NCBI RefSeq assembly: GCF_013620825.1
Contig: NZ_NJIC01000055.1
Location: 1 to 63,157, forward strand
Reading direction: 5' to 3'
Source of the DNA: Rhodanobacter sp. PCA2
GTDB taxonomy: Bacteria > Pseudomonadota > Gammaproteobacteria > Xanthomonadales > Rhodanobacteraceae
DNA length: 63,157 bases
Positions within the stretch are counted from its first letter, which is position 1. Every line of letters begins with the position of its first letter. Shown in pieces: positions 56,087-58,752 of the stretch. The position numbers were made by a program, and so were the translations under genes. The notes under the pieces were generated by a model. The model was not told where the DNA came from, made no database searches, and was given only the letters and a program-made list of their open reading frames with translations.

Positions 56087-56117
56087 AAAGCCCACGGCCC
56101 GCGGAAGCGGGCCGTGG
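56086..56117 (-). terminator. Terminator of rpoH
   Basis: CCACGGCCCGC ggaa GCGGGCCGTGG, perfect 11-bp stem at 56092-56117. On the minus strand it is followed by GCTTTT. It starts 50 bp past the rpoH stop and abuts the ndh stop, so it may serve both. Confidence 0.78.
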
Positions 56118-56167
56118 CAACTCAGCTGCGTCGCTTGTCGGGATCGCGGCCGGACGGGGCCGCCCGG

Positions 56168-57025
<858 letters not shown>

Positions 57026-57053
57026 GTGAAACCTCCAGTACCAGGGCTTCAGG

Positions 57054-57080
57054 TTAGCACTCCGGTAGTTGGAGTGCTAA
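57054..57080. promoter_or_regulatory. CIRCE operator (HrcA-binding site) upstream of rpoH
   Basis: TTAGCACTC (57054-57062), 9-bp spacer CGGTAGTTG, GAGTGCTAA (57072-57080): an exact match to the consensus 9-9-9 CIRCE. It lies 28 bp before the rpoH ATG and 23 bp after the ABC-F stop, so rpoH is the only gene it can plausibly control. Confidence 0.92.
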
Positions 57081-57103
57081 AGCCGCAGATAGTTCGCGGC
57101 TTT
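57079..57103 (-). terminator. Hairpin between the ABC-F stop and CIRCE
   Basis: AAAGCCGC (57079-57086) pairs with GCGGCTTT (57096-57103), 8 bp, loop 9 nt. It starts in the ABC-F stop codon and shares two bases with CIRCE. The U-tract is only TTT, so termination is probably partial. Confidence 0.5.
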
Positions 57104-58752
57104 TAGTAAACCGAATCGTACAGAAATTTGTGCTGGCTGTCCATTCCCCGCACGGCAAATCCCTCTCCGGACAGCTCGATCCGGCCGTCGAGCCGCAGGC
57201 GGTGCAGGAACACCTCGTCGTGCGAAACCAGCACCAGCGCGCCCCGATACTGCAGCAGCATCTGTTCCAGCGCCTGGAGGGAGCGCAGGTCGAGGTGGTT
57301 GGTGGGTTCGTCGAGCAGCAGCAGCTCGGCGGGATGTTCGGCATACAGGACGCACGCCAGCGCGGCCTTGAGGCGCTCCCCGCCGCTCAGGCGGGAGCAG
57401 GGTTCCAGCGCGGCGTCGCCGGAAAGCCCCAGCAAGGCAAGCCGTGTCCGCATTTCGGCCTGCCCGGCGGAAGGATTCGCGGCCAGCAACTGGTCCAGCG
57501 CAGACCGGGCCGGATCGAGCATGGCCAGTTGCTGGTCCAGCCAAGCGTACGGAACATGGACCTCGCACCGCCCCGCAGCGGGCGGAACGGCCCCGGCAAG
57601 TATTTTCAGCAGGGTGGATTTGCCGCTGCCGTTCGCTCCCGTCACCGCCATGCGCTGACGGCCCCGGATCGTCAGGTCGATGCGGCCGCCGGCTGCGCTG
57701 CCAAACGGCAACCGCACACCCTCGAGCGTCGCTGCCTTGCGCCGCGCTGCGGCCAGGGCGGCCGGCGCCAGCAAGCTTACGTCCACGTCCTCACGTACCC
57801 GGGAAGCCGCTTCGCGGACGCGCCGGGCCTGTTCGTCGCCGGCGGCCTCCAGGTCGCGCTGACGTTTGCCCATGCTCACCTGGCTGTCCTGTCTGCGGCG
57901 ACCCAGCAGGATCGGGGCCTGGTTCGCCTTGCGGCCCTCCCGCGTGGCGCGCGCCTGGCGGCGCTCGAGGCCCTCCTGCCTGGCACGCCGCTCCTCTTCG
58001 CCACGGCGCTGTTCCGCCTTGCGGTGCTCCAGTTCCTGCAAGGCGAGTTCCTGCTCCCTGGCTCGGGCCTGTTCGTACCAGGCAAACCCGCCGCCATAGT
58101 CGCCCAGGCCCGAGGGCGAAAGCTCGAGAATGCGTTGCATGCCGTCCAGCAATTCGCGGTCGTGGCTCGCGACCAGCAGCCCTTTCGGCCATGCACGCAG
58201 CTTGTCCAGCAGCAGCTCGCGTTGCGGGCGATCCAGGTGATTGGTCGGTTCGTCGAGTATCAGCATGTCGGGATCGCCGAGCCATGCCCCGAGCAAGGCA
58301 AGGCGGGTCAGCTCGCCGCCGCTGAGGACGGCGGCGGACTGCTCCGGCGCGAGATGGCCCAGCCCATGCGCCTCGAGCTGGCGCGTCAGGCCCTCGCGGA
58401 TATCCCAGCGATCGCCCACCTTCTCGAAATCGGCGGGGTCCACGCTGCCGGCCTCGATGCGCGACAGCGCACGGAGCAGCTCCTGCACTCCAGCGATGCT
58501 GGCGACCGTGGCGCCGGGCGGACAAAGCACCTGCTGCGGCACGTAATGGACCGTGCCCGTACGCAGGACCCGCCCGCGGGTGGGCTCCAACTGCCCGGCC
58601 AGCAGGCGTGCCAGCACGCTTTTGCCCGCGCCGTTGCGCCCCACCAGCCCGGCGTGGCGCTGGTCGAGCTGCAGGTCGATGTCCGAAAGAACGCGATGGC
58701 CGTCGGGCCATGCAAACGCGACGCCTTGCAGCGTCAACAAGGATTCCGTCAT
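57103..58752 (-). CDS. ABC-F family ATPase (duplicated ATPase, no membrane domain)
   Basis: 549 aa. Two ATPase domains: first Walker A GRNGAGKS, signature LSGGELTRLALLGAWL, Walker B DMLILDEPTNHLD. Second Walker A GANGSGKST, signature LSGGERLKAALACVL, Walker B LLLLDEPTNHLD. Between them (about 225-330) is a charged helical linker very rich in Arg, Glu and Gln (EQARAREQELALQELEHRKAEQRRGEEERRARQ), the P-site tRNA-interaction motif of ABC-F proteins. It probably acts on ribosomes in translation or antibiotic protection; the subfamily is not clear. GGAG is 5-6 nt before the ATG. Confidence 0.93.
   Translation of the reverse strand: MTESLLTLQGVAFAWPDGHRVLSDIDLQLDQRHAGLVGRNGAGKSVLARLLAGQLEPTRGRVLRTGTVHYVPQQVLCPPGATVASIAGVQELLRALSRIEAGSVDPADFEKVGDRWDIREGLTRQLEAHGLGHLAPEQSAAVLSGGELTRLALLGAWLGDPDMLILDEPTNHLDRPQRELLLDKLRAWPKGLLVASHDRELLDGMQRILELSPSGLGDYGGGFAWYEQARAREQELALQELEHRKAEQRRGEEERRARQEGLERRQARATREGRKANQAPILLGRRRQDSQVSMGKRQRDLEAAGDEQARRVREAASRVREDVDVSLLAPAALAAARRKAATLEGVRLPFGSAAGGRIDLTIRGRQRMAVTGANGSGKSTLLKILAGAVPPAAGRCEVHVPYAWLDQQLAMLDPARSALDQLLAANPSAGQAEMRTRLALLGLSGDAALEPCSRLSGGERLKAALACVLYAEHPAELLLLDEPTNHLDLRSLQALEQMLLQYRGALVLVSHDEVFLHRLRLDGRIELSGEGFAVRGMDSQHKFLYDSVY

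Follow-up and report, generated by a model that had tools for sequence, protein, structure and literature searches.

What does the operator of the heat-shock repressor HrcA do in front of rpoH, the gene for the heat-shock activator sigma-32? The HrcA/CIRCE repressor system and the sigma-32 activator system are usually described as alternative heat-shock strategies, with sigma-E constituting a third, envelope circuit. Classical HrcA/CIRCE control acts on groESL and hrcA-dnaK, in Bacillus and many other bacteria. In the window analysed here, a stretch of 63,157 bases from Rhodanobacter sp. PCA2, the operator lies upstream of rpoH.

A perfect CIRCE upstream of rpoH

The element TTAGCACTC-CGGTAGTTG-GAGTGCTAA is a 9-bp inverted repeat with an N9 spacer that matches CIRCE with 0 mismatches, separated from the rpoH ATG by 28 nt (bases 57026-57053), exactly as the first-pass annotation had described it (Table 1). 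No further CIRCE with up to 3 mismatches is present elsewhere in the window, and 100 dinucleotide shuffles of it all yield 0, giving a chance expectation of 0. The whole 3.9-Mb genome contains two CIRCE-like sites with at most 2 mismatches, the one at rpoH and a second, with 1 mismatch, immediately upstream of groES-groEL, whose products Pfam identifies as Cpn10 and Cpn60. The reversed pattern, used as a control, has 0 matches in the same genome. The repressor itself, presupposed by the first-pass annotation, is encoded (G000:C55; 306.6 bits against a cut-off of 197.2), its gene adjoining grpE and dnaK.

Table 1 Features of the rpoH upstream region in the window
Feature	Position	Strand	Basis or remark
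CIRCE, perfect HrcA operator	57054..57080	.	motif search of window and genome
rpoH, sigma-32, 285 aa	56168..57025	-	TIGR02392, 412 bits, cut-off 323; ORF
Shine-Dalgarno GGAGG of rpoH	57032..57036	-	sequence; G/A-rich columns at the same place in 66 family loci
Predicted sigma-E -10, TCCAA (TCnnA)	57069..57073	-	last TC of left CIRCE arm and first three spacer bases
Predicted sigma-E -35, GAACTA, 16-bp spacer to -10	57090..57095	-	conserved -35 motif window
Predicted sigma-70 promoter, TGGACA-N17-TACGAT	57115..57143	-	inside last codons of upstream ABC-F gene
Inverted repeat AAAGCCGC...GCGGCTTT around sigma-E -35	57079..57103	-	folds; arm-swap test

The window belongs to a GTDB family of 197 genomes, which we take to be Rhodanobacteraceae of the order Xanthomonadales; the closest named relative by RpoH among the matches listed is Dyella flagellata (86%; genus g18, the window being in g1). 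Within the family, rpoH is found in 197/197 genomes and hrcA in 193/197 (166/166 among those of good quality), and a CIRCE with no more than 2 mismatches occurs at least once in 196/197, as against 2/197 for the reversed control. By hand count, about 150 of the 197 hold exactly two. Seventy family loci, a non-random sample, were compared at rpoH, comprising the 30 nearest (window included) and 40 hand-picked for spread over genera and partly for low CIRCE count. An upstream CIRCE with up to 3 mismatches is present in 66 of the 70, exact in 50 of these 66, the 18 arm bases being kept and the spacer mostly variable; the conservation expected by the first-pass annotation is thus found. The four loci lacking a CIRCE within 3 mismatches at rpoH are L094, L138, L141 and L142, and in the first of them (genome G006) hrcA and the groES CIRCE are kept.

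The wider set consists of 80 RpoH loci among the matches listed, selected for their resemblance to the RpoH of the window and drawn mostly from beta- and gammaproteobacteria, with L019, L079, L081, L082 and L083 titled outside the class (Gammaproteobacteria in the GTDB sense, betaproteobacteria included). Exclusion of L060 and L069, where rpoH lies at a contig end, leaves 78 loci. Among the matches listed, CIRCE with up to 3 mismatches stands at rpoH in 42 of the 78, exactly in 24 of the 42, its bearers including Dyella, Rhodanobacter, Luteimonas, Methylocaldum, Pseudoalteromonas, Nitrosomonas, Burkholderiales, Rhodocyclaceae and others. HrcA is encoded in 40 of the 42 CIRCE-bearing genomes as against 6 of the 36 CIRCE-less ones, again among the matches listed (Fisher test, 4e-13, the species being non-independent). 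The two CIRCE-bearing genomes lacking an HrcA match (L012, L053) are both MAGs, and three HrcA matches fall under the family cut-off (L031, L062, L067), the last two being fragments. The enterobacteria, vibrios, Shewanella and Haemophilus of the wider set have neither CIRCE at rpoH nor hrcA. CIRCE at rpoH is presumably lost when hrcA is lost. In Xanthomonas pisi, the rpoH site is degenerate, with 5 mismatches; together with the loss of CIRCE in L094/G006, where hrcA is kept, this site indicates that the link between HrcA, CIRCE and rpoH is dispensable. The motif is kept at rpoH in relatives but is not a speciality of the Xanthomonadales, the spread being much wider.

Variants of the operator changed in both arms occur in 9 of 108 rpoH loci (the wider part among the matches listed). 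The form TTAGCAGTC...GACTGCTAA, altered at arm position 7, is seen at rpoH in L006, L008 and L121 and at groES in L181; the form TTGGCACTC...GAGTGCCAA, altered at arm position 3, is seen at rpoH in L132 and L149. An altered HrcA specificity accompanying the position 7 form at rpoH was considered and finds no support: a Leucothrix MAG carries this variant at groES (L181) and the classic operator at rpoH (L080), so that one HrcA seems to accept both forms. At a limit of 2 mismatches, genomes of genus g11 show a single CIRCE, which in G010, G033 and G143 is the rpoH site. An HrcA regulon reduced to rpoH alone was nevertheless rejected for this genus, as a groES CIRCE with 3 mismatches, CTGGCACTC...AAGTGCTAA, weaker than the rpoH one, is kept in the seven g11 genomes examined (L206, L209, L210, L211, L213, L215, L216). 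In 28 groES loci among L163-L191, CIRCE comes directly after a C..TAT.A block that is itself conserved, and CTTGAA-like bases stand 24-29 nt upstream, an arrangement that fits the sigma-32 promoter consensus.

A predicted sigma-E promoter beneath the operator

Sigma-E promoters consist of a GAACTT-type -35, a spacer of 16-17 bp and a TCnnA -10. The window carries GAACTA-N16-TCCAA, a sigma-E-type promoter whose -35 differs from the best GAACTT. A CIRCE-anchored alignment shows a second conserved block at rpoH, with GAAC starting 15 or 16 nt ahead of the operator and an A at spacer position 3. Combined with the last TC of the left arm, this A gives a TCnnA -10, which the GAAC-type -35 precedes by 16-17 bp. 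The -35 motif, scored wherever GGAAC, GAACT, GAACC or GAAACT falls within a single fixed 9-nt window, is present in 65/66 family loci, in 23/42 wider loci among the matches listed and in 0/28 groES CIRCEs, against a background of 0.001-0.014 per window in other upstream 9-nt windows. The corresponding counts are 64/66, 26/42 (among the matches listed) and 2/28 for the -10, and 63/66, 21/42 (among the matches listed) and 0/28 for the full composite of both. Relative to the groES control, the composite is enriched in the family (Fisher test, 7e-21) and in the wider set (2e-6), the sequences in both comparisons being non-independent. For this control, 40 genomes were queried, 36 matched, 30 loci were taken and 28 used, L172 being dropped for unassignable orientation and L192 for having no CIRCE within 3 mismatches. 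Within the family, the sigma-E -35 and -10 rank among the best-conserved bases outside CIRCE. The genome encodes RpoE (315.9 bits against a cut-off of 236.15), and GAACTT-N16-TCTGA lies upstream of its own rpoE.

An independent search with a 42-bp composite pattern, allowing up to 3 mismatches, covered 369 genomes spread over the class and matched in 190 of them, the reversed control matching in 0; by hand count, at least 71 genomes hold the composite with 0 or 1 mismatch. Thirty matching loci were retrieved. The 21 that depart from the pattern at no more than 1 position are all on the rpoH strand, 15-72 nt ahead of the gene, and so are 3 of the 4 with 2 mismatches; the five with 3 mismatches are located at groES (2) and at rpoH (3, two of them the palindrome read from the opposite strand). 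Since 3 mismatches admit bare CIRCEs, the stricter matches carry the weight.

The promoter is also seen where the operator is absent. A sigma-E-like promoter lies within 300 nt at 22 of the 36 CIRCE-less wider rpoH loci among the matches listed, with 0.3 expected, the enterobacterial ones being among them, and in X. pisi GAACTT-N16-TCCAA is retained over the decayed palindrome, so the promoter is more widely distributed than the operator. Conversely, the full composite is missing in 21 of the 42 CIRCE-bearing wider loci among the matches listed, 13 of these 21 being betaproteobacteria by title. One of the 21, L076, comes from a MAG titled Rhodanobacter and thus from close kin of the window; its CIRCE is exact but the composite is missing, which counts against the sigma-E reading.

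Taken together, these sequence comparisons make it probable that the 27-bp palindrome is a true operator of HrcA placed over a sigma-E-dependent rpoH promoter, with HrcA gating the sigma-E-driven transcription. HrcA would accordingly be expected to bind the CIRCE at rpoH and to repress the gene.

Sigma-70 promoters and RNA hairpins as alternatives

HrcA might instead repress rpoH mainly at a sigma-70 promoter, a reading that we consider plausible but somewhat less probable than not. Repression could take place at the upstream TGGACA-N17-TACGAT, with bound HrcA forming a roadblock in the leader, or at a promoter formed by CIRCE itself (TTAGCA...TAAWAT). The upstream promoter is the sole sigma-70-like site found in 56900-57400, and 43 of 66 family loci show a TGTAC-type -10 preceded, at a distance of 16-18 bp, by a -35 that matches in 4 or more of its 6 bases. 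TTRGCA at the left end of CIRCE combined with TAAWAT at its right end would make the operator itself a sigma-70 promoter, and TAAWAT is found at the right end in 27 of 42 wider loci among the matches listed and in 0 of 28 groES CIRCEs; the final T of such a -10 is present in 60 of 66 family loci. In the window, however, the right-end hexamer is TAACCT, a weak one, TAAWAT is present in just 2 of 66 family loci, and the family-wide conservation of the sigma-E -35 and -10 described above also speaks against a mainly sigma-70-dependent control. The two readings are compatible, and both promoters may be used. Of the 21 wider loci without the composite, 12 (out of the 27 with TAAWAT) have this sigma-70 -10 where CIRCE ends on the right, and neither element is seen in 9 of the 42. 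In some members of the class, betaproteobacteria in particular, HrcA may therefore gate a sigma-70 promoter instead of, or in addition to, the sigma-E promoter.

The conserved sigma-70 promoter of rpoH falls on the last codons (MDSQHKFLYDSVY) of an ABC-F ATPase gene (57103-58731, minus strand). This gene is located between a uracil-DNA glycosylase gene and rpoH, and its best NCBIfam match is the ribosomal protection-like ABC-F family (319 bits, under the cut-off of 380). Among the 30 nearest family loci, each with about 1.5 kb of flank, the window alone has an ABC-F gene at rpoH. In many relatives the upstream -10 region (57104-57122) reads TGTACNATTNNGTWCA, a partial palindrome and possible operator of another regulator.

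The inverted repeat around the sigma-E -35 would fold as a hairpin in the leader transcribed from the upstream sigma-70 promoter. A stem score of at least 7 is reached in 30/66 family loci, 5/42 wider loci among the matches listed and 2/28 groES loci. In an arm-swap comparison of 38 non-redundant loci, taken from the 45 of 66 with an upstream anchor (21 dropped), own arms out-pair swapped arms (3.42 vs 2.86 of 6), a result equalled in 7 of 2000 shuffles; pairing extends to no more than 2 of 6 inner positions in 16 of the 38, so that the support for the hairpin is partial. A terminator for the ABC-F gene was rejected, no terminator-like site being found and the hairpin being present in relatives without that gene. 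The consensus fold of 14 leaders was likewise set aside as RNA evidence, as it contains only the invariant CIRCE stem, with the upstream hairpin out of register.

An action of the palindrome as an RNA hairpin in the rpoH leader, affecting mRNA stability or sensing temperature, is quite improbable. The leader is predicted to fold into two adjacent hairpins (z = -3.9), the upstream of which covaries in part of the family, and changes on both sides at arm position 3 or 7 keep the palindrome in 7/66 family loci and in 2/42 wider loci among the matches listed. A dimeric repressor would demand the same arm symmetry, however, and the arm letters are otherwise fixed, exact in 50/66 family loci and in 24/42 wider loci among the matches listed, and unchanged across the 14 aligned leaders. 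Identical letters form the arms at groES, and the presence of CIRCE follows that of hrcA. A transcript from the predicted sigma-E promoter would start inside the palindrome, thereby preventing the stem from forming, and an Rfam search of 56100-57300 finds nothing at E = 1 or below. Least probable is a non-functional relic retained by chance, to which the loss of CIRCE despite hrcA in single relatives (L094, L005) would correspond by marking the site as dispensable, and against which the 18 arm bases kept in 66/70 family loci (50 exact) beside a mostly variable spacer speak.

Known systems and the proposed circuit

The preferred arrangement, an HrcA operator over a sigma-E promoter, shares with classical HrcA/CIRCE control the operator letters and the repressor family, including the second CIRCE at this genome's groES; it differs in its target, the sigma-32 gene, and in the overlap of the operator with a predicted sigma-E -10. 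In E. coli, rpoH is also controlled at the level of transcription, including from a sigma-E promoter, so that the contrast drawn by the first-pass annotation, in which E. coli relies on mRNA structure and protein stability, is too strong. The enterobacterial GAACTTGTGGATAAAATCACGGTCTGA upstream of rpoH is presumably this sigma-E promoter, P3 of E. coli. A matching GAACTT-N16-TCTGA is located upstream of rpoH in Lelliottia (L051), where it stands some 160 nt ahead of the start codon compared with about 70 nt here. Unlike the window, the enterobacterial genomes searched have neither a CIRCE at rpoH nor an HrcA match.

In Geobacter sulfurreducens, an exact CIRCE is listed at position -51 of rpoH (Table 8 of a 2004 study, PMC545781), and hrcA is present. 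This Deltaproteobacterium differs in that the accessible part of the study mentions neither a sigma-E promoter at rpoH nor a test of repression (PMC545781). In the portions available of PMC3135505, PMC3989490, PMC11764788 and PMC10696704, CIRCE at rpoH does not appear. The published Geobacter case means that CIRCE at rpoH as such is not new, and the site described here is a further case of something already reported. The new part would be the predicted overlap of CIRCE with the sigma-E promoter of rpoH: no joining of the two is found in the partly accessible literature searched on HrcA, CIRCE, rpoH and rpoE/sigmaE, which is weak evidence of novelty, as subscription journals lie mostly outside it. 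A 2003 study by Permina and Gelfand, whose title covers beta- and gamma-proteobacteria, may already list rpoH of such species as an HrcA target.

In the resting state, HrcA, held active by free GroEL, would occupy the -10 and the start region of the rpoH promoter, with the sigma-E start expected at about 57062-57064 from the usual distance of 5-7 nt. Because HrcA would cover both the -10 and this start, repressor and polymerase should be mutually exclusive: bound HrcA would shut out RNA polymerase-sigma-E and would also impede polymerase arriving from the upstream sigma-70 promoter. In Bacillus the activity of HrcA is established to depend on GroEL, and GroEL probably controls HrcA in Rhodanobacter sp. 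PCA2 as well. Given this dependence, titration of GroEL would open the promoter: misfolded proteins would fill GroEL, HrcA would release the operator, and with HrcA off and sigma-E active, rpoH would be transcribed and the sigma-32 regulon would rise. We infer AND logic at rpoH, combining envelope stress with GroEL titration. The serial connection from HrcA to sigma-32 that had been proposed retains its basis in the presence of hrcA and the conserved motif, but the placement of CIRCE on a sigma-E promoter points to a gate on the sigma-E-to-sigma-32 link rather than a simple series.

For the class as a whole, we lean towards the view that the sigma-E/HrcA composite is a widespread and probably old wiring of rpoH in Gammaproteobacteria, in which HrcA gates the step from sigma-E to sigma-32 and both stresses are needed. 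The E. coli types would then be stripped-down versions that lost hrcA and CIRCE and kept the sigma-E promoter, and the absence of the gate's repressor half in the enterobacterial genomes searched is a possible reason for the post-transcriptional emphasis in E. coli. The arrangement also predicts a feedback, in which sigma-32 raises GroEL, HrcA is re-activated and the sigma-E promoter of rpoH is shut. In conclusion, one 42-bp element, found in many families of the class, would unite the HrcA/CIRCE, sigma-32 and sigma-E circuits at rpoH.
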